From a virus, in the IMG/VR virus record IMGVR_UViG_3300029448_000081, positions 1 to 35,635 of that record: DNA of 35,635 nucleotides; one strand, given 5' to 3'. The notes under the pieces are model-generated. The model worked only from the letters and a program-made list of their open reading frames with translations, was not told where the DNA came from and searched no databases. Below, one piece after another: positions 7,877 through 31,846 of this stretch. Position 1 is the stretch's first letter. Every line of letters begins with the position of its first letter. Both the position numbers and the translations under genes were made by a program.

Positions 7877-7877
7877 T

Positions 7878-8045
7878 TTATTTTCTTTTACAATCATTTA
7901 CTGTTTTACCAGGTCTAGTTGGTGATGGCTTTGTGCCTACTTTTTTAAACCCAGGCCAACAAGACGAGTTTGAAGAGTCCGCTCCTTTAAACGTGGCTGG
8001 TGATTTTTCTTTAGGAAGTAATCCTTTTAATGGTGAATTTCTCAT
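7878..8045 (-). CDS. 55-aa basic Cys protein (CWPGFKKVGTK type)
   Basis: This small gene was found by reading the gap between two larger ones. It encodes 55 aa starting MRNSPLKGLLPKEKSPATFK and ending CWPGFKKVGTKPSPTRPGK followed by TVNDCKRK. The ATG overlaps the PAP2 stop as ATGA, and its TAA is one base before the ATG of the GCTD-repeat gene, which is strong contextual support. The pattern CWxGFKKxGTK...VxxCxxK recurs in short proteins of marine phages as far as I recall; no function is known. The two Cys may bind metal or form a disulfide. The N-terminal SPLK motif also occurs at the start of the giant 3343-aa protein. A DNA-binding or packaged cargo role is a guess. Confidence 0.72.
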   Translation of the reverse strand: MRNSPLKGLLPKEKSPATFKGADSSNSSCWPGFKKVGTKPSPTRPGKTVNDCKRK

Positions 8046-8563: not shown

Positions 8564-8880
8564 TTCCAATTTCTTCTAGCTATATCGTTTGGACAATCTC
8601 CGTTTTTATCTGGATTTTTACACTTTGGTATACCAGCAGATCTAGCACAATAACTATCTTTACGAGGTCCTCCTCCTGGTTGTGGCCCTTGAACGTTACC
8701 ACCAGTTTTTGCGTTGTAAGCGTCTCTTTCTTTTTTGCTCATCCCACCCGTATGTGGTTTTGTTCTTTCAAAAGGGCTTTTTTCAGTGCGATCTTTACCT
8801 GGGCCACCGCCTTGAGTAAACGTTCTACGTCTACCGCAACTTGTAACTGGAAAGGGATTATTTTTTTGTACGTAAGCCAT
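8557..8880 (-). CDS. 107-aa Gly/Lys/Cys-rich protein (SYCARSAG type)
   Basis: This is a small, basic, probably largely disordered protein starting MAYVQKNNPFPVTSCGRRR. The middle is rich in Gly and Pro (GGGPGKD twice), then comes MSKKERDAYNAKTGG. The C-terminal 35 residues contain DSYCARSAGIPKCKNPDKNG and finish ARRNWKC. A domain with SxCARxxG at one end and a final RxWxC at the other is found in many phage hypothetical proteins, often after a KKxRxAYNxxTGG lead-in as here. Three or four Cys could bind zinc. Its start is one base after the stop of the 25-aa gene. A nucleic-acid-binding or virion-packaged role is inferred from charge only. Confidence 0.7.
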   Translation of the reverse strand: MAYVQKNNPFPVTSCGRRRTFTQGGGPGKDRTEKSPFERTKPHTGGMSKKERDAYNAKTGGNVQGPQPGGGPRKDSYCARSAGIPKCKNPDKNGDCPNDIARRNWKC

Positions 8881-11068: not shown

Positions 11069-14000
11069 TTAATCATGGTAGTAACAATATCCACTAGAAG
11101 CTGATGTCATCATCTTACATCTTTTCTTATCGCTTTTGATGCCTTTACATTGAGTTTTTTCACCACTTTCTCTTTGTTCAACTTCTTCATGAATAGTACA
11201 AAAAGCGCCACCGCCTTCTACTTTTTTACCACATCTTTTTCCTGATTTATTTACAGCGGCACATTTAACTTTTTTACCTTCTTCTCTTTCTTTCTTTTGA
11301 AGCTCTTTGTTTTTTTCTACTTGGTTTACTTCTTCTTGCTCTTCTTTTTCTTCTTTTATTCTTTTTTTCTCTTCTTTTTCTATTTTCTTTTCTTGTTTCT
11401 TTTGTTCTTTAACCTCGAGTTTTAATGTTTCTATATCAACATCTCTTATTCCTAAATCCCAAGTATTCCAACCCATTATCAAAGCTACTCTTTGCCACCA
11501 TTCATTATTAGAGTCCATAGCGTTGTCAAGGTTTAACATTTTATTTGATAATCTACCAAGAGGTATATTTGTAAAACCTTCTATGGTATGACCAATAGCT
11601 TGCCATAAAGGATTATCTAAAGTAAACCCTCTCTTCATAAATATATCTTTATTAAATCTATCAGTTTGTATAGATGAATATATTTTTCTAAGTTTTGATC
11701 CTATAGGTGGAGAGAAACTAAGTAAAGCTAACAATGTATAAGCATGGTCAGAGTTCCAACCTTTATCTCTCTGTTTCAAATATTCTTCTATTGAACGTTT
11801 TAAAGTTCCAACAGCTTTACCACCATAGCCAAACGCAGACAACCAACCTTCAAATATACCATTTAATATTCTCTCTTTCTTTTGATCAAACTTTTCTTCA
11901 TCTTCATCTCCAAGAGAAGCCCATATCGCGGATTGTAATGCGTTAAATATTATAGCTTGAACAGCTCCGTAATAAACTAATTTAGAGAGATGTGTCTTCA
12001 TATCTCCTCTTCCGTTAACAATATCTCTAATCGACTTATTCATAATACGACCATACTGCATAGGAGTGTTTTGAAATGCTAATATCAATCTACCAAGAGG
12101 GTTTGCTTGTTGTTGTGATATTAAATCAGGTCTTGCTGATTGTTGAGAAACCTCTGTCGTTTCTTGAAAATCCAACCAAGCTCTTGATTGAGCTTCTTTT
12201 TGATTTAAACCTTGTTTTAAATATGTTTTAACTCTATTTCTATAAAAACTAGCGCCACCAAAACCAATAGCAAAACTATCCGCAATTTGTGTAGGTAAAA
12301 AACCTTTATTTAATAACCAAGCTAATGCTGCTTTAATTGGATTTGAACTACCTACAACCGCTTTCATTAACTCTGATTCTTGAACGCCCCTTTGGTTACC
12401 CCTACGTCTAGTCTTTAACATGTCAGAATTAAAAATATATACAAAATCTTTCCAAAACTGTCTTTGATTTGCAAAAGCTAAACCAGCTTTATAAGGGTTG
12501 TTATCTGTCCAATTTATATAGTTTGTTGCAGATATAGTTTGAAGAACAGCCGAACGTATATTGAAAAACATGATGGCGCCAACTGAATTATTTACCCAAT
12601 TCATGTACGCGTTAGTAATTCTATTGGCACCTCTTGGTCTATTAGAACCTGTTTCCATTCTATATAACATATCTTCTAAAGCCTCTCTAAATTTAGAACC
12701 GTATATAGCTTCTATTTTGTTTAGATTTTCAGGTGAAAATATTATATTCTTGTTTTGTATCCATTCTGCTAAAAATGTTGATCTAACATCTCCAATAGCT
12801 CCATCGCTTAATAAATCAGATTCTATACTTTCAACTATCCAATACTCTCCAGGTTTAGCGTAACCATCTTCTTTTTTAGATATTAAACCTAAAGCATCAG
12901 CAAAAGCTTGTAATCTTGGGTTTTTTTCTATCCAAGATACTAATGTTTTTAAATCTCTTTTTGATATACCAGGTATTTCAAAACCAGCTTTATTCCAAAG
13001 ATAAACTCTTACCGCTTGATCTTGAGTAAAACTTGTTGTTGGAATTTTTCTACGCAATCTTTTTTTAATACCTTTAAATTCTTTATATAAATTATTCAAG
13101 TCATTGAATGATGTTTGCTTGGCGGCATTTAATTCATTAATACCCCTAGCAAATGGATCAATTAAAGTTCTTTTAAAGAATGCCATTTGTTCTTCACCAA
13201 TCTTACCTCTACCTAAAAAATTATATAATAACCCTGCAAAATCTTGAGCAGATGGTGGTATAAGACTTTTATATCTACCTTTTCTACCTCTTATTCTCGC
13301 TTGAACATCAGAAAATATTTTTTCTGATTTTACCTTTGTGGTTCTTTCTAATATATCATTAAAATCTTTACTTGGATCTTTACTAAAATTAATTTTAGCT
13401 TGAACTGAACTACCTTTAATATCTAATTGATCTATTACATCAGCGACAGCTTTAACATTAGGTAAAGCGTCATCAACAAAATAAATATCATTATATCCTT
13501 GAGAATATTTTTCAACTATCCATAAAGCTTTTGCTTCACCAGTACTATTACCTAAACCGGTTATATTTTCTATTGGTAAATTTATGCCTTGTTGTTTTAG
13601 CCACGCTTGAATAGCTGGTGCACTTTCTTGAGGTCTAGCTGTAAGTATATAGTTGTTTTCTATTCCATACTTTTTAATTCTATTTCTAAACTTTTGCATT
13701 AATGGTCCCTCAACACCACCTCTAACGTTTATAAAATCACTAAAGTCAAACTCATAACCAGCTTCAGCTAACGCTGGACCTTGTATAGGCCACTGTGCCG
13801 ATGTTATCTCTAGTATTTCATCTCCTTTTTTAGCTATAATTATATTTTTCCCTTTATCAATAAGTGTTTCGTCAAAATCAAAAGCTGACATACCTCTTGA
13901 AGGCGTTTTATGATTTATTTTTCTTGAATTATTCACAGCTCTACTAAACATAAATCCTTTATTGATTTCTGATTTAGCTGGTATTTTACTAGCCGCTTTA

Positions 14001-17000
14001 GAAAAATGAGTAACATACTCAGGTTTTATTTCCCCTGTTAGCTGTTTTATTATTAAATCATTAGCGGTTTCAATAGGCATATTTGTCACGTTAAAAAATT
14101 CCGCAATAGTTTTATTAGAATCTACTAGCATGTATGCATTTGGATCAATACCCGAAACAGCTAATCTAATTATAGAAGAATAACCATTTGGAAGATTCAA
14201 CTCTCCACTAAGTAATCTAGGAACTACCATTTCATAATATATATCTGGCATATTAGACTTTAAAACTCCACTAGGATCATCAACTTCTAATAAAGAACCT
14301 TGCATATATGATTTACCAACAACCTTCCAAACATCATCTACTTTAGAAAAAACAGCACCAGTTAAAAGAGCTTTACCAATTAAGTTCTGAGGATCCGTGT
14401 GCTCTTCAACTGCTCTTTTGTTAAATACAGGTTTTTTTGTTTTTGGATTGATCGGGTAAAACGTAAACGGAGCCAATACTCTGGTTAAAGTATTTTGATG
14501 TTTACCAGTATCTAATAACATCTCTTCAAACATCCATATGTCATTTGGGAAGTTTTGTAAATGACTTTCAACAGCTGAAAAGAAATTATATAAAACATCT
14601 AATCTTTTAGCTCTATCGTTTTTAAATTTAGCAGTTTTTAAAATATCAAACTTATTTCTATTAAAAACAGGTCCAATACCTTTAACTTTGGTATTATAAA
14701 TCCATCTTGACACATCAACCTGCTCAGCATCTACTTCTTCTACAAAGTCATCAAAGTTTGTGTTGTCACCAGTTATTTTTTGATAATTTTTAAAAGCTTT
14801 ATCTTTGCTATTAGCAAACAAAAAGAATCCACCTTTTTTACCACCAGTTAAAGTGTTTCTTAATAAAGATCTAAATTCTGGATGAGACTGTAAGAATGTA
14901 TTGATTACTCTAGCACCCGCTTCTCTAAATGTTTCTCCAGTTTCTTTACTATATATAGCGTCTAAATCTCTAGCTGTATAAAAAGTACCATCTCCTTTTG
15001 GCACCTGTTTTGTAGGAACTCTTTTTTCTATACCACTAATAGCTCTTGTCAACTCGCCTAATTTTGACTCATACATTAATTTATAAGTAGTTGGATCTAC
15101 AGTGCCATCAAATTTTGATTTTTTACCAGTAACTTCATTACTAAACATTATCCTAGACTTTCCGTCACTTATTCTCTGTATAATATCTATAGACTCTTGT
15201 CTTTTTATTAAATGTTCTCTAACAGCTTGGTTGGTTAACATTTTTCCAGTCTGCGAAACTAATGCTTTTACTCTTGAACTAGTATTACTATCTTTCTTAT
15301 AAAGATTAGGTTTACCTCTTTCTGTTATACCAAATACTTCTAAAAACTCTTGAGTAGATATATTGTCGTTTTTAACTTGAACCGCTAAGCCTGCTTTTGT
15401 TCCTGTTTTCGCCATTTTAGCTCTACCACTTTTAGTATAAAAAGCATCTAGTAAAACTTTTTGTACCCCTGTAGATGTTCCACTAACAGTAGAACCTTCT
15501 GGTAACATTTGAATTAAAGTAGCTGCATGTTTGTTGATAAACATTTGAGCATTCTTAATATCTTGTTTTGTTAAATTACCAGTTTTTGGAATTATACCAA
15601 ACAACTCTTGTGTTAATTCAGGCGTTAAATCTTTTAATGTTTTAAAGTTTAATTTAGACATATCTAAACCAGAAGCTAGCGCTTTAACTTGTTTGTTTAT
15701 ATCTATAGCTATACCACCAAGTCTTTCAGATAACATTATTTTTCTACCAGTGGTTTGATCAAAAGTTTCTACTAGACCTACAGTTTCTTCCGCCACATCA
15801 ACTCTTTCTGTAATATCTTCTGTAAATTCTTCACCTAAAACTCTATTAGAAGCTTCAATAGCTCTTGATGGTAAATATTTATTTATATAAGCAGCTAATG
15901 GAACGCCAGATTCTGATTTATACTCTTGTATTAAGTCGTATATACCCCTAGCTCCAGTTTCTATTTCATCCATTAACAACTGTCTATCAAAACCAGGTGC
16001 ATTTCTACGTCTTTCAACTAATTTACTTGTAATAGGTTTGAACGCATCTATAATATCAAAAGCTCCACCTACACCTTGCTCTTCATATATTTTTTGAACT
16101 CTATCAGATGCTTCTTTTGACATTAAAGGAAATTGACCTTGATCATCTTGTTGTAAACCAAGACTTCTAAGCGTTTTAGCATATTGATCGCTTCCATACT
16201 TAATAACACCACCAACTTTAGCGCCTTTAAGCATTGTTCTTCTCATACCCTTACTCATCCTCTTGGTTTCAATCATTTTATTATAATCTCTAATAAAATT
16301 CATTACATCCATTCCGCTCTCAAATTCAACTCTTTTACCACCTCTAGAAAAAGCTCTTCTTAGCATGTCTGAAACTTTAACTGAAAATGTTTCGTTATAT
16401 TTCATCTCACCTTTTACTAAGGCATCAGAGAAAAGATTTAAGGTTTCTTCCGCGGATATTACATCACCTTGTTTAGCTTGATAATCTAGTACTCTCGCTC
16501 TAAATTCAGAGTTTCTGATACCATTAGGATTCATGCTCATCAACTGTGTTTCTAAAGCCCTACCTACAGCCAACTTAAGATGAGGATTTTTACTAAAAGT
16601 TTTATTTAAGAACCTGTGTAAAAACTCATGAGCAGCAACGTTTTTAGCCCCAAGTTTTAAACTAGCTTCTTTATTAATAATAATACTTTGTTTACCATCT
16701 ACAGTTTGTGTTGTAAAACCATGTGTTGCGTCAAAATCATTTTTATTATCTTGAACTTGTTGATTTATATCTTGAAAAGTTATAGGTTTTTGAGTGTCAT
16801 CTAATCCAAAGTTAATCTGATTTAAATCTTTTAAAGATAGCGTTGTATTTGTTTTTGTATCTATATAAACTCTCTTACCTGTTTTAGCATCTCTTATAAC
16901 TTGAATACCGTGTTCAGAAAGTATATCATTTAAAGCTTTTATTTCGTAAAACTCCGCTGTCTCCGCTGTTGATTCCATTTCCACAATATCAGTATCAGGA

Positions 17001-20000
17001 TCAACTTCTTCTGAAAACTTTTTTACCGCATCAACTTTTTCTTGATATTGCTCAGACGATCTCTCTTTATTTACAGCAGCAATTACAGGATCTAATATTT
17101 TATTTTTTTGCTTATTAAGTTTATTAATTTCAGCTTCAATCTTTACTATTTCTTCTAAAGTTTCATTTTTATTTTTAGAATTGTTTTTGATTAAAGTTTC
17201 TCTTTGTTCCTCTAAACCTTCTACTTGCTTTGTTAAATCTTCAACCTCTTTTACTTTGTTTTCTGGTAATCTATTTACGGCCTCAACTTCTATTGAAGCA
17301 GCAACATCTTCAACAACTTCTATTAAATTTTTAGAAGTAAGATTTCCCTCGAATCCAGTTCCTTCTAATTCTTTATAAATTTCTTCAAAAGCAAAGAAAT
17401 CATTACTTACTTCTATTTTTAAATCTTTTAAAGTACCATCTTTTTTAGCTTGTCTTACAGCATCTATAATATCTTGAGGGTTTGAATAGCTATCAAGTCC
17501 AGCTATATAAACAGGATCTCTTTTTCCAGTAGCAAACTTATACGTTTTATTAGCAGCACCAAACATTACTTGCATCGCGCCAGTTTGAATAAGAACTTCT
17601 TCTGTAAATTTAGCATCTATACCATCTAGCAAGCCTCTACCATCTATTAAGTTTTGTAATGGTTGAGCCATGAATTCCTCCATAACCTCAGGTATAATAC
17701 CATTCCAACCACCAGCTCTTTGTATTTGTTGAAGGAAATTTGCAGAGGCAGGATTTAAACCCATTTTTCTAGCGTATCTACCAAGCACCATTCTTTTAAG
17801 CCATACTGGATCCCCTAATAATTGCTTGTTTAAAAACTTAGCTCCACCAGGTATAAACTGACCAAATCTTTCTGTTCCGTATTCTACCCATGTGGATCCA
17901 AATGCTTTAGTAAATGCCTCATCCCAACCTCTATCTTGCTCATATATTGGATTACCATCAGCATCGTCTCCGACGTAAAAACCTAAATTATCTATTTCAA
18001 ATACCAATCCCTCAGCGCTAGAAGTTAAGCTCCATGCCATTTCAGGCGTCATTCTATCTATAGTGTTTTCGTAAATCATACCACTACCTCCAACAGTAGT
18101 CATTGCAGCAGATTTAAGTAAAAAATCTGTGGTAGCTGCGGCTGTATTTTGCACTTTTAGTGTCCCCGCAGATATACCTTTTATTTTAGAATATTTATCT
18201 ATAACCTCTTGCGATTTTGTAAAAAGTCTACCTTGTACTCCTCCTATTTTAACAAGCTTACTACCGTATTTAAGTAAACCTCTACTAGCTATCATCTCTA
18301 TCATAAATCTAAAAGAATCTACAGTACCAGATCCCGCGTTGTAAGACGTTGACATTTCAGATATCTTAGCTTGAAGCTTTTCATATTCAGACCAAAGAAT
18401 TAATGTTTCTTTTTCTTTTTCAGTAAGTTGTTCAGAAGGTTTTTGTAAAAGTTTTCTTATATAATTTTGTTTATTACCAGCTTTTATATTAGCATAAACA
18501 GGTATTAAATCACTAAACTCCCTACTAAACATACCATCAAAATATCTACCAACCGCTGTTGAAGACATAAATTCTGGTGTTTCTATTATTTTTTTAGCAT
18601 AACTTAACGCCTCTTCTTCACTTTTAGTTAGATCATCTAGTTTTTCTAATTCAGCAATTGTTTCTTCAGCCCATATTTTCATAGCTGTCGATGTAGGTCT
18701 ATTGTTTTTGTCTAATGATATTTTTTCATAAGCTTTATAATAAAACTCTTCTCTTCTAGCATCTACCTCCGCTTCATCTAAATATTTATCAAACTCAACC
18801 TCTAGTTTTCTCCAAGCTAAATCAATAGCTTCTTTTTGAGTTTGATAACCATATGAACTTATACCATCTTTCTGTAATTTCTTAAACACATTGTCGTATA
18901 CTTCGTCTGATATTAATTGCTCCGCTCCGTTAGATTTATTTTCATAAGATTTTTGTATAAATTCAGATTGATGTTTATAAAAAAGATCTTCTAGTTCTTT
19001 TGTTTTATTATCTAAAAAATCACCAGTATATTGCGTTACTAGCTCTTGGTATCTACTGTTATATATTTCATTAAAAGGTTTTGTCAAAGCATCAAGTTGA
19101 GCTTGTCTATCAGCCTTAACAGAGTCAACATGCTGTCTATATCTAGTTGTAATTCTTTTTTTAAATTCTGCACTATATTGTTCTTCAGAAATAGGATCGA
19201 ATGTGCCGTCTTCTAGTTCTTTTATTAATTGAGCTTGTATTTCTTCTTGTAAGCTATTTATTATTTCTTCATCCTCTAATTCAAAAGAATTATACAACTC
19301 GTTCATTTGAACGTTTAATTCGTCTTTTTCTTTTTTTAATTCTACATCTAACGTATTTTGAATTTCTTCTTTGTGAGGTTCTAACAATGCATCTAACTCT
19401 CTTTGAGTGTTAATACTAAATTCAGCTTGGATTTCAAAACTTTCTTTTTTATAATTTTCACTTTCAAGAATTTCAGTTGTAGTTTTGCTTTTTTCGTCTA
19501 TAATATCTTGGTAAGTAATATTTTCTAAAACCTCTGTTTCTTTATATATATCGTTTTCTTGTTCTTCTTGTAGTTCTTCTTGTTTATCAACATTAGTAGA
19601 TTCTGTTTGGGCTGGTTGCACTACATCAACAGCTTGAGCAATAACATCTGCCCCACTATCCTCGTACTCACTATACTCATCCCCTAAAGTATCATAAAAT
19701 AAATCTTCTATAACCTTATTACCACGAGTATAATCATCATACATATACTCATACGCTTCAAATTTTTCAATAGATCCGCCATCCAACAGTCTACCTTCTT
19801 TATCATATTCAGGTGGTATAAAATCTGTAAATTTTTCATACCAGTGGTATGATCCTGAGCTAGGAGGCCATTCAAACTGGCCATATCTTACGTTGAAAGG
19901 TTGTGCGTCTATACCTCTTCCATCAGCAAATAATTGCTCACGTCTACCACCACTAGTCCAATACGCAAACTCTTGTTTATACGTGCCTATACCTTTTTGG

Positions 20001-21100
20001 TAATTAACTTTACTTATTCCACCTCTTTGATTACCAGGTTTTATTGTGTGCAAACCGCCAGGTTGATACTTGCTACCTGTAACATTTTCATACATATTAG
20101 GCGCGATTTTAGAAACATAATCTTCTATATTATCCGCTCCTTTTATATCTGTAACCCATTTATCCCAATTAAATACTACTTGCTCTAAAGCCATTTTTTC
20201 TGCATCAGCATTCATAGGATTTGTGAACTCCAAGTATCTCTTATATACATTGTTCCACATCATTTCACCATCTTCACTCCAGTCGGTTGGTAGTTCTATT
20301 GTAGTGCTTTCTTCTTCGCCAAAGTGCCCATGACGAGTTATTATAAGTTCATCGTCACCCCCTTTAAATCCTGTTAAGTAATCAAAAGTATAATAATGAC
20401 CATTGTTATCAAAACCATTGGGATTAACCTCTGTAGTACGCATTTCTTTATAAGCTTGATGCATACTATTTAAATTATCGGTGACATACTTCTCAACATT
20501 TCTAGTGGTTTCATCACTAGGTGATAGTTGTCTAAAAGTATCCCAACCAACAGATCCATTAAGATTTTCTAAATGTTTAACTTTTACACCACCTAAATCA
20601 TAACTATAATTTCCTTCACCATCATTCCACTTAGCATCGAACGTGCTTTTTTCTTTATATGACCCAGCCTCATAATCTTTTAATTCTTCTTGAGCTTCAG
20701 CATCTTGACCTTTAACAACGACGTCTTGATAAACCTGAGTCTGTGGATCTGATAATAAATCACCGGTAACATTATCATCAAGATTAAGGTAACCATCTTC
20801 CATGTCCCATATATCAATAACAGCGTCATCTATAATTAAAGGAGCCACAACAGTTAACGCGTCAGTCTCTAAAGCAACATCTTCAACTACGATGTCGTTT
20901 TCCACTACTTGTGCTTCATCTTCAGTGTCACTTTTTGGGCTTTTGAATTCCCAAGGTTTTTTCTGCTCTTCTTCTTCTACAATAGCTGAAGCATCGCCAC
21001 CGTGAATTTTATCATGTTGTTCTTGAGTAAGATCGTCATGAGCGTCAACACGTTCTGGTACCTTTTCATTATGTTTTAACGGAGATTTTTTTATACTCAT
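11069..21100 (-). CDS. Giant (3343-aa) polyvalent-type virion protein with zincin and HAD phosphatase domains
   Basis: This is the largest gene in the window. The N-terminus (MSIKKSPLKHNEKVPERVDA) leads into an acidic region, then Glu/Lys-rich coiled coil (about 510-800) and another coiled coil at about 1280-1370. A zincin motif AAHEFLHRFL (His1491, Glu1492, His1495) marks a metalloprotease-like domain. At about 2400-2565 a full HAD motif set appears: FDFDETL (Asp2408, Asp2410), ILTARP, EAKALW and YFVDDALPNVKA (Asp2543-Asp2544). A long helical region follows, with QNTPMQYGR reminiscent of large polyvalent-protein associated domains. The last 65 residues carry two zinc-finger-like repeats (CAAVNKSGKRC...FCTIH and CKGIKSDKKRC...YCYYH). 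Its ATG overlaps the upstream TGA. The placement after internal virion proteins suggests it is packaged and injected; protease and phosphatase activities could act on host or phage targets. Domain calls rest on motifs. Confidence 0.85.
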   Translation of the reverse strand: MSIKKSPLKHNEKVPERVDAHDDLTQEQHDKIHGGDASAIVEEEEQKKPWEFKSPKSDTEDEAQVVENDIVVEDVALETDALTVVAPLIIDDAVIDIWDMEDGYLNLDDNVTGDLLSDPQTQVYQDVVVKGQDAEAQEELKDYEAGSYKEKSTFDAKWNDGEGNYSYDLGGVKVKHLENLNGSVGWDTFRQLSPSDETTRNVEKYVTDNLNSMHQAYKEMRTTEVNPNGFDNNGHYYTFDYLTGFKGGDDELIITRHGHFGEEESTTIELPTDWSEDGEMMWNNVYKRYLEFTNPMNADAEKMALEQVVFNWDKWVTDIKGADNIEDYVSKIAPNMYENVTGSKYQPGGLHTIKPGNQRGGISKVNYQKGIGTYKQEFAYWTSGGRREQLFADGRGIDAQPFNVRYGQFEWPPSSGSYHWYEKFTDFIPPEYDKEGRLLDGGSIEKFEAYEYMYDDYTRGNKVIEDLFYDTLGDEYSEYEDSGADVIAQAVDVVQPAQTESTNVDKQEELQEEQENDIYKETEVLENITYQDIIDEKSKTTTEILESENYKKESFEIQAEFSINTQRELDALLEPHKEEIQNTLDVELKKEKDELNVQMNELYNSFELEDEEIINSLQEEIQAQLIKELEDGTFDPISEEQYSAEFKKRITTRYRQHVDSVKADRQAQLDALTKPFNEIYNSRYQELVTQYTGDFLDNKTKELEDLFYKHQSEFIQKSYENKSNGAEQLISDEVYDNVFKKLQKDGISSYGYQTQKEAIDLAWRKLEVEFDKYLDEAEVDARREEFYYKAYEKISLDKNNRPTSTAMKIWAEETIAELEKLDDLTKSEEEALSYAKKIIETPEFMSSTAVGRYFDGMFSREFSDLIPVYANIKAGNKQNYIRKLLQKPSEQLTEKEKETLILWSEYEKLQAKISEMSTSYNAGSGTVDSFRFMIEMIASRGLLKYGSKLVKIGGVQGRLFTKSQEVIDKYSKIKGISAGTLKVQNTAAATTDFLLKSAAMTTVGGSGMIYENTIDRMTPEMAWSLTSSAEGLVFEIDNLGFYVGDDADGNPIYEQDRGWDEAFTKAFGSTWVEYGTERFGQFIPGGAKFLNKQLLGDPVWLKRMVLGRYARKMGLNPASANFLQQIQRAGGWNGIIPEVMEEFMAQPLQNLIDGRGLLDGIDAKFTEEVLIQTGAMQVMFGAANKTYKFATGKRDPVYIAGLDSYSNPQDIIDAVRQAKKDGTLKDLKIEVSNDFFAFEEIYKELEGTGFEGNLTSKNLIEVVEDVAASIEVEAVNRLPENKVKEVEDLTKQVEGLEEQRETLIKNNSKNKNETLEEIVKIEAEINKLNKQKNKILDPVIAAVNKERSSEQYQEKVDAVKKFSEEVDPDTDIVEMESTAETAEFYEIKALNDILSEHGIQVIRDAKTGKRVYIDTKTNTTLSLKDLNQINFGLDDTQKPITFQDINQQVQDNKNDFDATHGFTTQTVDGKQSIIINKEASLKLGAKNVAAHEFLHRFLNKTFSKNPHLKLAVGRALETQLMSMNPNGIRNSEFRARVLDYQAKQGDVISAEETLNLFSDALVKGEMKYNETFSVKVSDMLRRAFSRGGKRVEFESGMDVMNFIRDYNKMIETKRMSKGMRRTMLKGAKVGGVIKYGSDQYAKTLRSLGLQQDDQGQFPLMSKEASDRVQKIYEEQGVGGAFDIIDAFKPITSKLVERRRNAPGFDRQLLMDEIETGARGIYDLIQEYKSESGVPLAAYINKYLPSRAIEASNRVLGEEFTEDITERVDVAEETVGLVETFDQTTGRKIMLSERLGGIAIDINKQVKALASGLDMSKLNFKTLKDLTPELTQELFGIIPKTGNLTKQDIKNAQMFINKHAATLIQMLPEGSTVSGTSTGVQKVLLDAFYTKSGRAKMAKTGTKAGLAVQVKNDNISTQEFLEVFGITERGKPNLYKKDSNTSSRVKALVSQTGKMLTNQAVREHLIKRQESIDIIQRISDGKSRIMFSNEVTGKKSKFDGTVDPTTYKLMYESKLGELTRAISGIEKRVPTKQVPKGDGTFYTARDLDAIYSKETGETFREAGARVINTFLQSHPEFRSLLRNTLTGGKKGGFFLFANSKDKAFKNYQKITGDNTNFDDFVEEVDAEQVDVSRWIYNTKVKGIGPVFNRNKFDILKTAKFKNDRAKRLDVLYNFFSAVESHLQNFPNDIWMFEEMLLDTGKHQNTLTRVLAPFTFYPINPKTKKPVFNKRAVEEHTDPQNLIGKALLTGAVFSKVDDVWKVVGKSYMQGSLLEVDDPSGVLKSNMPDIYYEMVVPRLLSGELNLPNGYSSIIRLAVSGIDPNAYMLVDSNKTIAEFFNVTNMPIETANDLIIKQLTGEIKPEYVTHFSKAASKIPAKSEINKGFMFSRAVNNSRKINHKTPSRGMSAFDFDETLIDKGKNIIIAKKGDEILEITSAQWPIQGPALAEAGYEFDFSDFINVRGGVEGPLMQKFRNRIKKYGIENNYILTARPQESAPAIQAWLKQQGINLPIENITGLGNSTGEAKALWIVEKYSQGYNDIYFVDDALPNVKAVADVIDQLDIKGSSVQAKINFSKDPSKDFNDILERTTKVKSEKIFSDVQARIRGRKGRYKSLIPPSAQDFAGLLYNFLGRGKIGEEQMAFFKRTLIDPFARGINELNAAKQTSFNDLNNLYKEFKGIKKRLRRKIPTTSFTQDQAVRVYLWNKAGFEIPGISKRDLKTLVSWIEKNPRLQAFADALGLISKKEDGYAKPGEYWIVESIESDLLSDGAIGDVRSTFLAEWIQNKNIIFSPENLNKIEAIYGSKFREALEDMLYRMETGSNRPRGANRITNAYMNWVNNSVGAIMFFNIRSAVLQTISATNYINWTDNNPYKAGLAFANQRQFWKDFVYIFNSDMLKTRRRGNQRGVQESELMKAVVGSSNPIKAALAWLLNKGFLPTQIADSFAIGFGGASFYRNRVKTYLKQGLNQKEAQSRAWLDFQETTEVSQQSARPDLISQQQANPLGRLILAFQNTPMQYGRIMNKSIRDIVNGRGDMKTHLSKLVYYGAVQAIIFNALQSAIWASLGDEDEEKFDQKKERILNGIFEGWLSAFGYGGKAVGTLKRSIEEYLKQRDKGWNSDHAYTLLALLSFSPPIGSKLRKIYSSIQTDRFNKDIFMKRGFTLDNPLWQAIGHTIEGFTNIPLGRLSNKMLNLDNAMDSNNEWWQRVALIMGWNTWDLGIRDVDIETLKLEVKEQKKQEKKIEKEEKKRIKEEKEEQEEVNQVEKNKELQKKEREEGKKVKCAAVNKSGKRCGKKVEGGGAFCTIHEEVEQRESGEKTQCKGIKSDKKRCKMMTSASSGYCYYHD

Positions 21101-21945
21101 GCTTTGTTATTTCTTTTTTTAATACCCACCTTTGGCGGCGTAAATGACATGTTTGTTGTTTGCGCGTCTTGCTCCGCGTTATGGTTAGGATTAAAAGATT
21201 TTCTTAATCTATTAGCGTAATATTGGTGTAATCTAGTGTCATGTTCTGGATTAAAGGATTCAGGGTGTAACATTTCATCTGTTATTTCTCCAGATTGTAT
21301 TACCGCTTGATTATCTTCAACATAATCATTTAAAAAGTATCTACCACCAATTTTATCAGCAGCAAAAACTTTCCATTTAGCTTCGTTTTCAAATAACTTA
21401 TTTAATTCCCAATCAATATCAAAATCTAACTCTTTACCCATAGTGTTACGCTGCTTTACACATTCTTGCTGTAACCTCATAAAGTCAGCTTCTTCAGTAC
21501 CTTTTATAACCCAATTTTGAGTAATTTCATTAATATACTTATGTTTTTCTGATCCATCAGGTTGCTTAACAACTAACAAAGGTTTTAACTGATCGTCAAA
21601 TAATATCTCCCCTTTTTCTATAAAAAAATTTCTATCAAAACTTAGATCTGTCCAGTTAGAATAAAGATTTTTACCACCAGTACCACCACCGTAGTTTCTA
21701 GCAAACTCTTCTTTTAATGATTTTAAATTATCTAAATCTTTGTTTACTTTATATATTTGTGATTTATAGTTGTTTGCTTGTTCTTTATTACCCCTAGCCA
21801 TTTCCATGTCATAATTTCGCACTAAACTAGCAATCATTTCGTTTATATTCTTTTTATTTCTTGGACCATGTATTTCTGAGGACAACGCATCGTTACCGTA
21901 CGTCATATTCTCAAAATATCTTTTTACCTCTTTATCTTCAGCCAT
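21097..21945 (-). CDS. 282-aa protein of unknown function, probable internal virion component
   Basis: The protein is hydrophilic and largely helical, starting MAEDKEVKRYFENMTYGND and ending PPKVGIKKRNNKA. It holds several charged helices (NYKSQIYKVNKDLDNLKSLK) and a middle beta segment around LLVVKQPDGSEKHKYIN. No signal peptide, membrane helix or enzymatic motif is visible. Its stop overlaps the start of the giant protein as ATGA, so the two are probably translationally coupled and may be made in fixed ratio. With the coiled-coil protein upstream it forms a three-gene group resembling the injection-protein clusters of short-tailed phages, an analogy from order and composition and not from homology. 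Confidence 0.65.
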   Translation of the reverse strand: MAEDKEVKRYFENMTYGNDALSSEIHGPRNKKNINEMIASLVRNYDMEMARGNKEQANNYKSQIYKVNKDLDNLKSLKEEFARNYGGGTGGKNLYSNWTDLSFDRNFFIEKGEILFDDQLKPLLVVKQPDGSEKHKYINEITQNWVIKGTEEADFMRLQQECVKQRNTMGKELDFDIDWELNKLFENEAKWKVFAADKIGGRYFLNDYVEDNQAVIQSGEITDEMLHPESFNPEHDTRLHQYYANRLRKSFNPNHNAEQDAQTTNMSFTPPKVGIKKRNNKA

Positions 21946-21970: not shown

Positions 21971-22600
21971 TTAAACACCTCCCAACAAAGCACTAGTTGC
22001 TCCGGCTACAAATTTATCTTGCATTTGTTCATAATCATCAACAGCCATGTTTGCTGCTTCAGATCTTTGCATAGCTAAATCTAACATTTTATCTTGTTTG
22101 TCAAGACCAAACTTTTCTACCATTCTTTCTCCTTCTCTTTCCATTAAATCTCTTTTTTGTTCTCCTTCTCTTTCCATCTTTTGTAATCTTCCGGCCTCTG
22201 CTCTAGCTCTAGCTTGGTTTGCTTGTTCTTGTTTTCCAATGTCAACAGAAGCTTGTCTAGCTTGTTTTGTACTTTGATTAGCTAAAACCTGAGCTAATCC
22301 AGCTACTCCAGATCCACCCGCCGCCGTCTTCATGTTAGCCATTATATTTGCCGCACTTTGTTGAGACTGTTCTTTGGCAAACTCAGCTGCTTTTAAATCT
22401 ACGGTTTGATCTTCGTACACGTTTTCCATGTCAGCATATGGGTTTTTCACCCCAGCGTAAGGATTTTTCATTTTAGTATCCTCCCACGCGGCCATTTGGT
22501 TACCCATGTCTTCGTTAGCGGCTCTTTGCTCTTTTCTTAATTGTGCTCCTCCAAACAGTGCGTTTATAAACTTAGCTGGAGATGGTTTTTTATATGCCAT
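21971..22600 (-). CDS. 209-aa coiled-coil internal virion protein
   Basis: The sequence begins MAYKKPSPAKFINALFGGAQ. It has a repeated NPYAGVKNPYADMENVYED stretch, then a long Ala/Gln/Glu-rich helical region (AAGGSGVAGLAQVLANQSTK, QARARAEAGRLQKMEREGEQ) and ends ALLGGV. Small Ala/Gln-rich helical proteins with a central AAGGSG...LAQ motif are found in phage virions as internal or ejection proteins (T7 gp14 and P22 gp7 are functional analogues). The short hydrophobic ends could insert in the envelope during DNA entry. It precedes the 282-aa gene by 25 bases. The ejection-protein assignment is inferred from composition and position. Confidence 0.7.
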   Translation of the reverse strand: MAYKKPSPAKFINALFGGAQLRKEQRAANEDMGNQMAAWEDTKMKNPYAGVKNPYADMENVYEDQTVDLKAAEFAKEQSQQSAANIMANMKTAAGGSGVAGLAQVLANQSTKQARQASVDIGKQEQANQARARAEAGRLQKMEREGEQKRDLMEREGERMVEKFGLDKQDKMLDLAMQRSEAANMAVDDYEQMQDKFVAGATSALLGGV

Positions 22601-24883: not shown

Positions 24884-27800
24884 TTAGTATGCGCTAGGGG
24901 GATTATTTGAGCTAATGTTATTAACGTTAGGGGGATTTTGTCCATTTTTACCTTTAACAATATCATCATCCTCATATATTATAGGTACATCACCATCGTC
25001 ATTAACAATGTAACTACAACTGCCGTCATTAAAATTAGCGAGCGGATCATAATTAGATGCTGCTGGATCTGTACAACCATAAATTGGATTAGAAGTATCG
25101 TTCTCGCATTCTCCAGGCCAATTAGCACTAGAATCATAATTATCAAACTGCGCATTCATACAACCTACTTTAATATTTATCGTATCAGTCGATGTGCAGG
25201 TATCTATAATTTGATCATTTTGTACAAAGTAAAAATCAACAATAATCTTCCAGCTACCAGTTATAATATCGCTATTTAAAACGTCAACTGGAAGAGGTTT
25301 AATACCACTAATTGTAGCAATAGAAATAGGCATTAGTCCACTATAACCAGAATCTATTTCAATATTACTAGGATTTAATATACTCCAAACATAAGCTATT
25401 TGATAATTAGATGTTGGCGCGGGAAATGCTAAAAATTTAGCTGCTAAGTTAGGTGTTGATGAAGTTAAAATCCAATTAACTGAAGGACAAGTGATTCCCG
25501 TGGTGGTACCATCATCTTCAGCTTCAAATACCTGGCCAATTCCTTGAAAGGTAAAATCACCAGTGTCCATTCTATCTAAACGTTGAATTTCACCGTCACG
25601 AGTTATATTTGTAAAATACTTTCCTTCTTTTTCTTTAAACACCTGTGCACTACCTCTCTCTAAATCAGTTCTTATACTTTGTACATACCAACCATTTTGG
25701 TCGTATAAATTATCTACATTTTGATCTGTATAGTCTGTATCAGGCTGAAGAGGTATAGCTAATGTATTATCTACATATTTATATATTTTCTGCTGGCTTC
25801 CCTCGTAGTTTATAGTGTTAAACGTTTTCACAACGCCTGGATTGTCATTTAATATTGCTGTTAAACTAGATGGATATCTCACGCCATAAAATTGATTGTG
25901 ACCTAAACTTCCTACATAATAGTGATGCAGCCATATCTCTCCTTTTTTAAAAGTGTAATAGTCATTAGCCATGCTATTACCAACCTCCATATCAATAAAA
26001 CTTTTAAAGCTTACCCATCCTTTCACTTTTTCATTATAAGTTAAGACGTAGTATGTACCCGTCGTCGCCTTACCTACCTCCTGAGCCATAACACCACCAC
26101 CACTACCACTCGTACCTCGTAACTTAATATTATACTCATCGTTTCTATCATCATAACTACCTATAATATAAGGACTGTCTTTTAAATTATCTCTAAACCA
26201 ATCATTCATACCGTAATCAGATATTGGTGTTAACCCGTCTTTTGATAACCTCATTATTTTACCCCTAATCTTGTCGGAAAAATATGCTCTGTAAGCTTCT
26301 GAGGCAAAAGATTCTGGGTTTGTAGATATACCATATTCTCCAGCAAAAGGTATAGTTTGTCCTAGTACTTTATCGCTAGACGTTACGTTTGAATTTCCAT
26401 CAGCGTTAAATAAAGCGTCCTTGTTAGCTTGTATTCTTAAAATTTTGTCTTCACAAAGAGTTACTAAATCTGAATCTCTTGAGTGTAATTTTTGTATACT
26501 ACCGTAAGCTGGATTTACATCTTTGGTAATTTTTTCAGCTTGTATAAATTGGTTTAAATCGTTAACCCCAGAAGTAGAGTTATATATACCAGAGTATATC
26601 AATCCATACTTTCTCCGCTCTTTTTTGTATTCCGTGTCGAGTGTTGTAGAGGCTTTAACACCGTTTAATATATAAGACTGGTTGTAATTATCTCTAATTC
26701 TGTTTGACTCAACTCCATTTCCAAAAGAATAACAATTATGCCACGAAAGCTTAAAATCTACATTGTAAAGATCCGTACTTACTACTATTCTGTGACTAGT
26801 TAAATTTGCATCAAGATTTATTTTAAACGCTAAGCCACTAGGCGTAACTACATCAACTTCACTACCAACCAACAAGTTTGCAGTACCTGTTTGAAAACTT
26901 GTTAAATCTTCAACCCCTATGTTTTGATTTTCACCAATATACAACTGGGTTGATGCTGAGTTGTATCCCCAAACGTAATATTTTTCACCAGCAAGACCCG
27001 TTATCATTGTACCTAATGGAAAAGCTTCTTGAAGAAGCTGTTGATCATCTCCATTGATAGGTATTGCTCCAGTTGCTTCGTAATATATTTCTAAGTCTTG
27101 TGAATCTTTAGGTTCTGTTTCCCAAATTGCAGGGTTTTCTGACAAAACTTCTTCTGGTTCTATTTCTTCAACAAACTGTAAAGTTGGTCCAACCGCGGCC
27201 ATTTTACCAAGTTTTTGACTATTTATTCTAGTATTCATAGCATATCCACAAGCATTGATATTAAAAGCGCTATTAGCATTATGACCGTTACAACCAAGTT
27301 GCACAAAATGATACTTATCATTAGTGTTGTTTCTAGGATATTCCGTGTTTCCACCACCATCTAACCAACTGTGGTCGGTATTTTGCATTGGAAAATTATA
27401 ACCACCTAACCACAACTCGTAGTATTTAGGATCTTGTGAGTTGTAACTTCCAGCATTCATAGGTCTAATAGCGGTTATAACTAAATAATCATTACCAGCG
27501 TGTCCAAATTGCTCACTACCATCAAAACCCGTTGTACCTTGTGCGTTAGTTATATTTTTTATTATAAGGCTACTACCGTCGGTATTTTTTGGAAAAGATT
27601 TCAATCCCATTCCAACATGTAGTGTTTGAGTACCGTGTAAACCGTTTTCATCATCAGCACTTAGCTCAGTAACATATATTTTAGCCCATTCTCCATCTGG
27701 ACCGGTTTGAGCACCATCAGTAATATCAGTACCAGAAGAACCAACAACCCCCATAACATCACAAATTTGCAGTTTTAATGCAAAACCGTTAGTAATTTCA

Positions 27801-30800
27801 CCCTCTACAAAAGGATTCCAATCCAATTTAGGTGTAATTTGTTGCGTATGCCAAGTTCTTCTAAAGTTAAAATCGACACATGGATCCATATTAAATGCCA
27901 TTTGATTACCATCGCTTCTTTTTCTATTTCTCGTAGATTCATAATTACCAGGACTACCCGGAGGTTGGTTACCATTTTCCCAACTATGGTTCAAAAATCT
28001 TCTAAAATTAATTTTTGAAGAAAAAGAATATACTGTATCGGTAGGGTCTTCAGCAAATTTAAATCTATTACCAGGGTTTATCCTTGCACACCATTCTTTT
28101 AGATTACTGTCATTGTATAATGGGTTTGCGTCTTCATTGTTCCAAGCTCCAACACCAAAATGATTATTAGTTGTCCAACCGCTTCCACCATCAGGACCCG
28201 CTGGTCCAGCTCCATTTGCAGCAGCCCCATGTATACCACCAAAACCTAACCACATAGACCAATATTCACTTGATTCATATAAACCACCAGGTTTACCAGC
28301 AGCTCCATTTGAATTACAACTATAACTATTATGAGTAAGAGAATCGTTATCAAACCTAAAATTATTACTAGTTGTTCTTTGGGCCATAACTCTACCCTCA
28401 TCAACAAACCATGTTTCAGAGTCTCTAGCTACATTTGCTCTATCGTCATCATAATTAGACTCGTTAAATCTTTCCCAAACGTAATTTTCATCAATGCTAG
28501 TACCCCCGCAGTCATACCAAAAATGGCTTCCAACACCATGGTAAGCGTCAGACTTTGTTCTAGGTACTACATTCCAATTAACTGGATCGTCTTTATCTCC
28601 AGTACCCGAAAACGTAGCCTCTCTCCATCTCATATTTAAATAACGATTACTAGCGTCGGTGTTTGAACCTGTATTTCCACCATCCCAAGTACCTTGTACA
28701 TAGTTATTAGGACCAGAACAAGTGTTATTAGCCGTAGCACCACCAGAGTCAGCAAGTGGTAAATATCTTCTAAACCAAAGAGCTGCTGATGTATATTTAT
28801 CACTCATATAGTGACCGTATCTTGTTATCTCACCTTGTCCATCTGTATTATCACAATTGTGTCCCCATCTAGGACCGCCATAAGAGCAGTTACTCCCGTA
28901 TTGGTGCGTTTTAGTAGCCGCTGGCCCTTGATATAGCATGTGTACTATATCTCCAAAATTAGAAGACGTTTTATTGGTTGGAAACGTGTATTCTTTTAAG
29001 CAATAACCCGACGCGTTTCTAGATCCTTGATAGTCATCAAGTGCTCTTTGTGTTTGTTGGTAACTAGGTGTAAACCACCAATTCATATGGGCTGTAAATT
29101 TTTCAAAATAATCCTCCTTTAAAAGATATATATTTTTAGCGTCCATTATTCTATAATCTAAACCACTTTTGAAAGACTTTTCAATATTTTGTCTAAATAC
29201 ATCATCTTGATATATTTTTACAAAAAATCTACCATCAAATTGTGGTAAGCTTCTAGGTTCATATTTGTATATATCAATAGTTGTACCGTTTTTAATATAA
29301 CTCGACATAATACCTGTTGGGTCATCTGAAATAAAGTTAATATCAGGACCAAAACCTTTGTCCAAAAGTATATTGTAAGTACCTTCACCACCTGCACCAT
29401 CCTCATCAAGAGACATGTTTGTTATTTTATATCTTTGTGATTTTTCTTCTTCACCTAGCAACCCAAATTCAATCCAAAGTTCTCCATCTTTGTATTCATG
29501 AAGATTTCTTCCTGGGGTATCTTTGTAGTGATTATACAACAACTTAAACTCTTTAGAGCCTTCCTTAGGCGCGTCTCCCATGTCTTCTTCAAAAATAGGA
29601 GATCCAGCAACCCAATCACCGTTTGCGTCATAACTAGGATAGTAATGTGTTTGTTCAGAATATATTTGAGGAATTGTTTTTATAAACTCAGGAGCTTCGT
29701 TTTCTATAGCTAATACTTTATATCTAGCAGCGTCAGTAACTAGTTCACTTTTGTCAGATCCTTTTTTTAATATTAAAAATGAATCTATATCAACTTTGTT
29801 TCTATCAGAAGAAGGAAATGCTAACCAAATATTGTTGTCCTCAGCAAGATACCAACGATCCATAGCCATGTTGTAGTATTCGTTAGAAGTTTCTTTTATA
29901 AAAAACTTCATATGTGTAAGATCTCCTGCTGGTGGCGAGCCTTTTAAACCAACCGATATTCTATTACCCCTTTGTGCGTGTAATTTTTCTAACTTCATTG
30001 TACCTGTGGGGTTAGATATAACAGGTGTTTCTCTACCGTACTTGTCTGTAAAAACTACTCCTAATTGATACTCACGTAATGTTTTACAGGATTTAGTTGC
30101 TTCTGTTGTTCCTGCCATAAACTCTGAAAGTCCAGTTTTAAAATCTGCGTAGTATTTTTTTGTCCCCGCAATATTTTTCAAATCATAGTTTTGTACATAG
30201 TTTGCATAAACAATTCTATTACCAGTAATATCTTGAGCTAAAGCCTTTCTAGGCACGTTATCCCAAGGTCTTAACAATTGGTTTTCAGGAAGGATTTGGT
30301 TAATTGTTTCTTTTTCTATTTTGTACTGGCCACCTCTTTTTATTCTATCCCACATATTAAAAACAGCACCAATTGATTTTTCATCATTAGGGCTTATTGT
30401 GTCTACTACATAAACAGCTGTAGAGGGTTCATCTTTAAATAAAATATCAACAGAAGCCACGTCATCAGGCATTTCATTATTTATAAACCTACTTAATTCA
30501 ATATGTTTTATAGAATTTGTCATACCTAGATTAAATCCTTTTCTAGGGTGGTAATCAAAAGCCCCTGGAACAAAAGCTACTTGTGTAAACGGAGCGAAAG
30601 GAGAATACTCTCCATCTTCGTATTTGTATCTATAAGAAAATCTAGGGAATTTAAACTCAAAAAGCTTTTCACTTTCTTGAAAAAGATCCATAGCGTATTG
30701 GAGTTCTAATTGACCAGCGGCAACGTCTGGTATGGGCGGAAAACCATCAATACCAGTTACTTTAACTTTAATAGCTGTGTCAGCGTGAACGGAATAAGAA

Positions 30801-31846
30801 GAAGGATCTGCGTCTATAACCTCTACTTTCATAGTCCAATCTGTTATTGGTATAGCTGGTGGATCATTTGGACCGTCAAACTCTTTTAAAACAAATTTAG
30901 TTCCAACGGCTACAGCGGCTGACCCACCTACACTAGGATTAGCACGCCAACCCATCATACCCGGCGCCCCAGATGACGGGGATGCACTAGTTCCAATAGT
31001 ACCAATAGGATCAATTGCTCCACCTGGATGTATCGCATTTTCTATTCTAATCCAAAACTCATCATCAACCGAAAATGGACTAAAATTATATATATCTGCT
31101 TGTTGACCAGTATAGTTTAACGAAGAGTTATTTGGTCCATCATCGTCTATTTCAACCGTAACAACAGCCGTGTATATCCAGTCTGGTCTTCTAGCGGTTG
31201 TTAACTCCATACCTAAAGGTTTAAGCGGTGTTTTTCTTATAACAGTTATGTGTTTTTCTTCTACATCTATATTGTTACCTATGGTAATACCTGCAGGTTC
31301 ATTTACAAGTTTTGTATGTGTTAAAGGAAACATAGTGGGCTGTTTAGTCCCTTGTATACTTCTTTCAATATTTATTTTTTTTGGCTCGTTGATATTGTCA
31401 GTCCAAAAAATCATGCCATCAATAATATTAACGCCCGTTATCATACCGCCCCTTGTAAATTTTAAACAGTCTTTATTTAAATCTATAAAAACCATCTGTG
31501 GAGTTGATGAACCTCTCTTGTATCTAACTATATAATCAGCGTTACTAGCCCACACAAACCAATATAAAGTGTCAACTTTCTCATCCGCTATAGATGCTAC
31601 AACCTCAGCATCTATCGGATTTAGAGGATCACTAAAGTCTGAAAAAGAAAAATTATAATTAGCATTTTTATCATAAAAAGGAATTTGGTCATTACTTAAT
31701 ATACTTTGAACAGTAGCCACGTCAGAACCTTCTGAAGTAGCAACCTGTATGTTTAGTGCGTCTCTATATTCTCCGTTTGGAACTAGTCTTTCGTCTAGAT
31801 CCTTATTCATTTTACCTTTGGTAAATTGCTTTTTAATCTCTGGCAT
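24884..31846 (-). CDS. 2320-aa P22 gp10-like DNA stabilisation/tail protein with GCTD repeats at its C-terminus
   Basis: The N-terminus, KGKMNKDLDERL then VPNGEYRDALNIQV, is characteristic of the large phage stabilisation proteins of marine Bacteroidota phages that resemble P22 gp10 in order and beta-propeller composition. These proteins plug or extend the tail hub after packaging. Residues 1-900 hold beta strands of propeller type. About 920-1540 is an unusual Asn/Gly/Trp-rich region with scattered Cys and His (NWWFTPSYQQ, SNCSYGGPRWGHNCD). About 1540-2130 is again beta-rich (ILRIQANKDALFNADGNSNV). The last 120 residues hold an Ig-like unit and two Cys repeats (GCMNAQFDNYDSSANWPGEC, GCTDPAASNYDPLANFNDGS). 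The C-terminal repeats match those of the exported 736-aa protein. It lies three bases after the 461-aa gene. The family call rests on the N-terminal motif. Confidence 0.78.
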   Translation of the reverse strand: MPEIKKQFTKGKMNKDLDERLVPNGEYRDALNIQVATSEGSDVATVQSILSNDQIPFYDKNANYNFSFSDFSDPLNPIDAEVVASIADEKVDTLYWFVWASNADYIVRYKRGSSTPQMVFIDLNKDCLKFTRGGMITGVNIIDGMIFWTDNINEPKKINIERSIQGTKQPTMFPLTHTKLVNEPAGITIGNNIDVEEKHITVIRKTPLKPLGMELTTARRPDWIYTAVVTVEIDDDGPNNSSLNYTGQQADIYNFSPFSVDDEFWIRIENAIHPGGAIDPIGTIGTSASPSSGAPGMMGWRANPSVGGSAAVAVGTKFVLKEFDGPNDPPAIPITDWTMKVEVIDADPSSYSVHADTAIKVKVTGIDGFPPIPDVAAGQLELQYAMDLFQESEKLFEFKFPRFSYRYKYEDGEYSPFAPFTQVAFVPGAFDYHPRKGFNLGMTNSIKHIELSRFINNEMPDDVASVDILFKDEPSTAVYVVDTISPNDEKSIGAVFNMWDRIKRGGQYKIEKETINQILPENQLLRPWDNVPRKALAQDITGNRIVYANYVQNYDLKNIAGTKKYYADFKTGLSEFMAGTTEATKSCKTLREYQLGVVFTDKYGRETPVISNPTGTMKLEKLHAQRGNRISVGLKGSPPAGDLTHMKFFIKETSNEYYNMAMDRWYLAEDNNIWLAFPSSDRNKVDIDSFLILKKGSDKSELVTDAARYKVLAIENEAPEFIKTIPQIYSEQTHYYPSYDANGDWVAGSPIFEEDMGDAPKEGSKEFKLLYNHYKDTPGRNLHEYKDGELWIEFGLLGEEEKSQRYKITNMSLDEDGAGGEGTYNILLDKGFGPDINFISDDPTGIMSSYIKNGTTIDIYKYEPRSLPQFDGRFFVKIYQDDVFRQNIEKSFKSGLDYRIMDAKNIYLLKEDYFEKFTAHMNWWFTPSYQQTQRALDDYQGSRNASGYCLKEYTFPTNKTSSNFGDIVHMLYQGPAATKTHQYGSNCSYGGPRWGHNCDNTDGQGEITRYGHYMSDKYTSAALWFRRYLPLADSGGATANNTCSGPNNYVQGTWDGGNTGSNTDASNRYLNMRWREATFSGTGDKDDPVNWNVVPRTKSDAYHGVGSHFWYDCGGTSIDENYVWERFNESNYDDDRANVARDSETWFVDEGRVMAQRTTSNNFRFDNDSLTHNSYSCNSNGAAGKPGGLYESSEYWSMWLGFGGIHGAAANGAGPAGPDGGSGWTTNNHFGVGAWNNEDANPLYNDSNLKEWCARINPGNRFKFAEDPTDTVYSFSSKINFRRFLNHSWENGNQPPGSPGNYESTRNRKRSDGNQMAFNMDPCVDFNFRRTWHTQQITPKLDWNPFVEGEITNGFALKLQICDVMGVVGSSGTDITDGAQTGPDGEWAKIYVTELSADDENGLHGTQTLHVGMGLKSFPKNTDGSSLIIKNITNAQGTTGFDGSEQFGHAGNDYLVITAIRPMNAGSYNSQDPKYYELWLGGYNFPMQNTDHSWLDGGGNTEYPRNNTNDKYHFVQLGCNGHNANSAFNINACGYAMNTRINSQKLGKMAAVGPTLQFVEEIEPEEVLSENPAIWETEPKDSQDLEIYYEATGAIPINGDDQQLLQEAFPLGTMITGLAGEKYYVWGYNSASTQLYIGENQNIGVEDLTSFQTGTANLLVGSEVDVVTPSGLAFKINLDANLTSHRIVVSTDLYNVDFKLSWHNCYSFGNGVESNRIRDNYNQSYILNGVKASTTLDTEYKKERRKYGLIYSGIYNSTSGVNDLNQFIQAEKITKDVNPAYGSIQKLHSRDSDLVTLCEDKILRIQANKDALFNADGNSNVTSSDKVLGQTIPFAGEYGISTNPESFASEAYRAYFSDKIRGKIMRLSKDGLTPISDYGMNDWFRDNLKDSPYIIGSYDDRNDEYNIKLRGTSGSGGGVMAQEVGKATTGTYYVLTYNEKVKGWVSFKSFIDMEVGNSMANDYYTFKKGEIWLHHYYVGSLGHNQFYGVRYPSSLTAILNDNPGVVKTFNTINYEGSQQKIYKYVDNTLAIPLQPDTDYTDQNVDNLYDQNGWYVQSIRTDLERGSAQVFKEKEGKYFTNITRDGEIQRLDRMDTGDFTFQGIGQVFEAEDDGTTTGITCPSVNWILTSSTPNLAAKFLAFPAPTSNYQIAYVWSILNPSNIEIDSGYSGLMPISIATISGIKPLPVDVLNSDIITGSWKIIVDFYFVQNDQIIDTCTSTDTINIKVGCMNAQFDNYDSSANWPGECENDTSNPIYGCTDPAASNYDPLANFNDGSCSYIVNDDGDVPIIYEDDDIVKGKNGQNPPNVNNISSNNPPSAY

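Follow-up and report, generated by a model that had tools for sequence, protein, structure and literature searches.

We lean, if only slightly, towards reading the giant protein described here as a polyvalent ejection protein of a podovirus-like phage of marine Bacteroidetes, one chain of which would bring a predicted zinc protease (zincin), a sigma-70 region 2-like (sigma2-like) domain, a PNKP-like HAD phosphatase, and zinc finger-like units into the host cell. The window, by which we mean the whole stretch of DNA analyzed, is 35,635 nucleotides long and covers positions 1 to 35,635 of the 46,163-base IMG/VR virus record IMGVR_UViG_3300029448_000081. A preliminary description had noted a single 10-kb gene; it is indeed one uninterrupted ORF, with an ATG start and no internal stop, to which we add that it lies on the minus strand (Table 1). 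Its residues are counted from the ATG at 21100, and the protein is called P0001 below. The same description had invoked the polyvalent-protein concept, a reading well supported by several predicted enzymatic domains, the zincin, and the place of the gene at the end of the virion block.

Table 1. Features of the giant gene and of its upstream neighbors, in window positions and in residues of the giant protein
Feature	Residues	Position	Strand	Basis or remark
Giant gene (P0001), 3343 aa		11069..21100	-	Start codon overlaps stop of upstream 282-aa gene (ATGA)
LPD14-like segment	1113-1188	17537..17764	-	Pfam LPD14
Predicted zincin (gluzincin-like) domain	about 1430-1640	16181..16813	-	Conserved motif and model
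HEFLH motif	1491-1495	16616..16630	-	Seen in ORF translation
Putative sigma-70 region 2-like helical domain	1660-1758	15827..16123	-	Structural matches and a relative's Pfam match
Conserved domain (FYTK...NTSAR...TNQAVR)	1789-1997	15110..15736	-	Close to 30 giants
Conserved region with EHxxP motif	about 2165-2380	13961..14608	-	Alignment A6
HAD phosphatase domain	2402-2570	13391..13897	-	Conserved catalytic set and AF2 model
Conserved C-terminal core	2593-3236	11393..13324	-	62% mean column identity, 37 sequences
Zinc finger-like unit 1	3280-3304	11189..11263	-	C-x-C-x-C-x-H
Zinc finger-like unit 2	3318-3343	11072..11149	-	C-x-C-x-C-x-H at 3318-3342; DUF5763
282-aa gene, possible ejection protein		21097..21945	-	Inferred from position
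209-aa Ala/Gln/Glu-rich gene, candidate T7 gp14-like ejection protein		21971..22600	-	Inferred from composition and position
2320-aa virion structural protein		24884..31846	-	phrog_14478, E 1.9e-129; homologues phi38:1 gp97 and others

The C-terminal 731 residues, used as query, retrieved at least 284 related IMG/VR loci, whereas a scan of viral contigs with the whole protein gave no match; nor did tblastn with both halves of the giant against 50,697 phage records. The best 80 of the at least 284 loci were taken forward and gave 67 complete giants, one ORF each; with P0001 these 68 proteins span 1391-4044 aa. Residues 2400-3220 of P0001 are common to nearly all relatives, whereas the first 1100 residues have a clear match in one relative only (L013), so the family joins a fixed C-terminal part to a highly variable N-terminal part. 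In Pfam scans at E below 1e-3, the N-terminal parts of 48 giants matched no known enzyme, and P0001 matched DUF5763 and LPD14 only. A hydropathy scan showed no outstanding transmembrane segment. Members of the family also occur in MAGs (L086, L087, L089, L092, and L093) labelled Alphaproteobacteria, Maricaulis, Aliivibrio, and Woesearchaeota; these copies are probably mis-binned phage contigs, and the labels were left out of host assignment as likely binning errors.

The HExxH motif of the preliminary description is found in 67 of the 68 complete giants, against 0.86 expected from shuffled sequences. Only four columns are invariant in an alignment of 49 zincin regions, and in sequence these residues (H1491, E1492, and H1495 followed by E1552) are the gluzincin pattern. 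In an AF2 model of residues 1425-2012, the zincin consists of two strands, the HExxH helix, and a later helix bearing the Glu, a topology that agrees with the published account of polyvalent zincins (a beta sheet, an HExxH helix, and a second helix with a glutamate; PMC5512222). Sequence matches to known peptidases are weak, whether to snapalysin, the top match of a PDB profile search, or to M78, M4, and SprT, and all are aligned on the HExxH. The zincin proposed earlier draws its support from the invariant motif and the modelled topology; we regard it as a predicted zinc protease. Eight giants (L006, L012, L017, L020, L022, L048, L055, and L082) have the HExxH in a second context that is at most distantly related to this one.

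Past the zincin lies a putative sigma2-like domain that the preliminary description had not noticed. Its resemblance to sigma region 2 was first suspected from reading residues 1690-1760. The model of residues 1425-2012 has a pLDDT of about 95 in this part, and when it was compared with the PDB with no prior expectation, all of the best 50 VIA-align rows were bacterial sigma factors, aligned to model residues about 211-335. The best of these (Z 8.5, rmsd 2.7, 90 aligned) falls in the range where VIA-align cautions about helical bundles, and a Z of this size is modest for helical folds. One could therefore see here a generic helical bundle, with neither sigma ancestry nor RNA polymerase binding. 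Such a bundle would fit the Pfam scan of P0001 itself, in which there was no sigma match, and a profile-profile comparison with cellular sigma factors that reached only P 9e-4 (71 of 82 columns). We nonetheless consider it unlikely, given that the structural rows, chosen blindly, are all sigma factors, and that in the giant of L084 the equivalent domain exceeds the curated Pfam cut-off for Sigma70_r2 (28.8 bits against 24, over positions 1-67 of 71). Three control domains, moreover, gave profile-profile P values of 0.02-0.28 over short alignments. Other sequence matches are fainter: Sigma70_r2 falls below the cut-off in the equivalent domain of the L051 giant, and a PDB profile search with the alignment of this domain was weak, with a sigma factor third (E 0.23). 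Of 81 giants, 27 were found to have the domain, and it follows the zincin in all 26 in which both were seen. No match to sigma region 4 appeared in Pfam scans of P0001 and of the relatives' N-terminal parts, and no standalone sigma factor was found in this record. Taken together, sigma ancestry of the domain is probable; that it makes a working contact with RNA polymerase is somewhat less likely than not. Separate sigma-like ORFs of ~255 aa are present in 8 of 50 relatives (the records of L060, L053, L046, L055, L049, L029, L067, and L050).

The full set of HAD motifs claimed earlier is likewise present: DFDET at 2408-2412, ILTARP at 2485-2490, Lys2524, and VDD at 2542-2544. Motif I occurs in 67 of the 68 complete giants (0.34 expected from shuffled sequences), and D2408, D2410, T2412, T2487, R2489, K2524, D2543, and D2544 are 96-100% conserved among 67 aligned sequences. 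AlphaFold2, given 62 sequences, predicted a clear HAD fold (pLDDT 81, core above 90), a Rossmann-like arrangement carrying motifs I-IV. A PDB profile search with the domain's sequence gave no match. By structure, the first eight VIA-align matches of the model are Pnkp structures (Z 11.3-12.8, about 2.5 A), headed by the 3'-phosphatase of T4 Pnkp (Z 12.8) and with Pnkp1 also among the top; the first HAD outside PNKP has Z 10.6. With Foldseek alone, the top matches are class C acid phosphatases, e(P4) (E 5e-5), placed above Pnkp.

The Foldseek ranking bears on whether this domain is instead a general nucleotidase or acid phosphatase (subclass IIIB-like) that acts on small phosphates, nucleotide signals for example, and not on polynucleotide ends. 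Motif I of the form DxDET is typical of that acid phosphatase subclass, which fits, and Acid_phosphat_B of Pfam matches weakly in two family members. Set against this are the VIA-align ranking and the architecture of relatives. In L005, L010, L016, and L022, motifs I and II of the HAD are separated by a nested P-loop kinase of the PNK/zeta type (AAA_33, E 2.8e-13; Zeta_toxin, E 1e-9), an arrangement that independently supports the Pnkp reading. Also compatible with end repair is the presence of an ATP-dependent DNA ligase, seen in 15 of 30 related records. We take the nucleotidase seriously as a possibility but think it the less probable one, and the HAD is likely of the Pnkp type. P0001 itself has no Pfam match to a P-loop kinase and just 79 residues between DFDET and TARP. 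Other inserts occupy the same cap position in L045/L067, L073/L080, and L081, the last with a weak ART-PolyVal match. With a kinase, an ART-like piece, or other inserts placed there in relatives, the HAD cap appears to be a module slot, resembling a docking site for swapped domains. Two further candidates were rejected: the HAD nucleophile only seemed lost in L081, where DFDQT sits 210 residues upstream of TARP with the insert between, and matches to a separate RNA ligase in related records proved to be the same ORFs as the DNA ligase matches.

The modules had been described as separated by long helical and coiled-coil stretches. This holds in part, for the linkers also contain further conserved globular domains, among them the sigma2-like one. 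Residues 1789-1997 were modelled with pLDDT of about 94. In the EHxxP region, E2233 and H2234 are invariant or nearly so, and 44 of the 68 giants have an EHxxP at most 400 aa upstream of the HAD. The two terminal zinc finger-like repeats are confirmed, the last of them matching DUF5763 above its cut-off (E 7.5e-7, 29 bits against 26.3); one or two such units are found in 28 of the 68 giants (about 40%). The search for LPD families, which the earlier description had proposed, gave a mixed answer: LPD14 matches P0001 at E 2.2e-5, yet with 24.9 bits stays below the cut-off of 27, and among 50 relatives it shows weak matches in four giants.

The genomic setting links the giant to virion genes. Upstream, on the same strand, the order is capsid-like, 279, 253, 461, 2320, 140, 601, 209, and 282 aa, then the giant. 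For the first five genes, homologues stand in the same order in Cellulophaga phi38:1, Flavobacterium elemoC, and MW202828. Each of these three virion blocks likewise has a giant as its last gene (1691, 3694, and 3859 aa, respectively). The records of phi38:1 and elemoC label these last-slot proteins structural. A search with the zincin profile picks out the elemoC giant at E 6.5e-11 and, at 3.9e-5, a segment of the MW202828 giant. No sequence match to the C-terminal core was detected in any of the three records, so the equivalence of the slots is drawn from position and, in two of them, the zincin. P0001 resembles phi38:1 gp101 and the elemoC giant in being giant and in its operon slot, the last of the block, and differs from them in its C-terminal core and its HAD, neither of which was detected or assigned there. 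The 282-aa gene just upstream has relatives in 5 loci, the 209-aa gene in 60, and the 2320-aa gene in 33.

The neighborhood holds several other genes. The 2320-aa protein is 770-1000 aa longer than its homologues in phi38:1, elemoC, and MW202828 (1324-1551 aa), with a stretch from about residue 723 to about residue 1697 that finds no match. At its C-terminus is a motif, YGCTDxxAxNYxxxANxDDGSC, that recurs as tandem repeats in a 743-aa protein (5666-7897, minus strand), hinting at a common surface or receptor-binding module. An endolysin-like M15 peptidase (1875-2330, minus strand; phrog_894, E 1e-30) is conserved in 38 relatives. A 175-aa protein (8042-8569, minus strand) resembles acid phosphatase PhoC/PAP2 (E 1.3e-6 in NCBIfam, under the cut-off), and at 1-1059 on the plus strand, opposite to the virion genes, the C-terminal portion of the large chain of a ribonucleotide reductase was recognized by eye.

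A giant, helix-rich protein encoded last in a virion block, whose best conserved stretch is a C-terminal core with no assigned function, might be a tape-measure or channel-like structural protein with vestigial enzyme-like domains. We judge this very unlikely, as the catalytic residues of the zincin and HAD are precisely the invariant ones in otherwise divergent domains. It is also improbable that the giant acts as an unpackaged takeover enzyme made in the infected cell. In other elements, polyvalent proteins are not necessarily virion proteins (PMC5512222), which would allow this, but the position of the gene, its collinearity with virion genes, and the structural label of the same-slot giants of phi38:1 and elemoC argue against it.

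Polyvalent proteins and their zincins are already known, the zincin being their commonest domain (Iyer et al. 2017, PMC5512222). P0001 has several distinct predicted domains on one chain (zincin, sigma2-like, HAD, and DUF5763), a HExxH plus downstream Glu zincin, which is common but not obligatory in such proteins, and a gene beside late virion genes. It shares with the polyvalent proteins this giant multi-domain chain with the zincin as a hub, and also variable accessory modules, such as the ART-like one of a single relative here. It differs in the nearly universal PNKP-like HAD and the frequent sigma2-like domain; the words "phosphatase," "polynucleotide kinase," and "sigma" are not mentioned in the text of Iyer et al. 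(PMC5512222). A second parallel, and the closest analogue for the mode of action proposed here, is the virion RNA polymerase gp50 of N4, a giant ejected protein of about 3500 aa in which a polymerase is combined with a HExxH domain and a large helical one (PMC12633501, PMC5512222), similar to P0001 in size, in its HExxH zincin-like domain, and in its large helical part. The role of gp50 is transcriptional, and the giant here would parallel it only through the proposed sigma-like role. Where gp50 carries a whole polymerase, P0001 has at most a sigma2-like module, plus the HAD; Pfam, PHROGs, and NCBIfam gave no match to a single-subunit RNA polymerase domain in P0001. To T4 polynucleotide kinase/phosphatase and Pnkp1 it is related by the nearest HAD fold and, in some relatives, by the joining of kinase and phosphatase. 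Unlike in those enzymes, the kinase is nested in the HAD of relatives and absent from P0001, and the HAD lies inside a virion-linked giant; in a survey of jumbo phages, PNK-HAD enzymes are separate RNA-repair proteins (PMC7824862). The closest predicted viral structures to residues 1425-2012 are two proteins of uncultured viruses in BFVD (A0A218MLT5 and A0A218ML07). One of them is named "UDP-N-acetylglucosamine kinase," a name it probably owes to an inserted kinase such as the L005 group carries.

As an ejection protein, the giant would be expressed late together with the virion genes and loaded into the capsid, to be threaded into the cell before the DNA or along with it, steps suggested by the position of its gene. 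The C-terminal core and the small upstream proteins would probably form or hold the ejection channel. Inside the cell, the target of the zincin may be a host protein or the giant itself, whose parts it would then free. The sigma2-like domain could dock on the clamp of the host RNA polymerase and bring it to the entering DNA, as N4 brings its own. The HAD, judging by its fold and catalytic set, might strip phosphate from nucleic-acid ends in the manner of PNKP and so protect or repair DNA or RNA broken at entry, while the zinc finger pair may contact nucleic acid or protein. We favor the ejection-protein reading because the HExxH and HAD motifs are near-universal amid otherwise highly variable parts, because the HAD model is nearest to T4 Pnkp and Pnkp1 and four relatives nest a kinase in it, because the sigma2-like fold comes with the L084 Pfam match and a constant place downstream of the zincin, because the virion-operon slot is collinear in three phages, and because the zincin profile matches a giant annotated as structural in elemoC. 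We count against it the failure to match the C-terminal core in the phi38:1, elemoC, and MW202828 records, the Foldseek preference for acid phosphatases over Pnkp, the modest value of the best sigma Z, the detection of the sigma2-like domain in only a third of giants, and the lack of a recognizable region 4. An anti-defense role, also suggested earlier, found no direct support; the sigma2-like and PNKP-like domains point at least equally to transcription start-up and nucleic-acid end repair.

In the open-access literature, the scope of our search, no description of a virion sigma factor turned up, and we found no description of a conserved PNKP-like HAD or sigma2-like domain within polyvalent proteins. 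Virion-carried polymerases are known; we came across no account of a sigma-like domain carried in the virion, nor of an ejection protein with a PNKP-like phosphatase as a constant component. We therefore put forward, tentatively and as an idea more likely to fail than to hold, that a virion-carried sigma-like domain recruits the host RNA polymerase to the incoming genome from the outset, in an N4-like manner, coupled to an end-repair phosphatase and a releasing protease. If true, this would reveal, in phages infecting Flavobacteriia-type hosts, a second route by which transcription of an incoming genome can begin, and it would offer a testable reason for the large size of these proteins.
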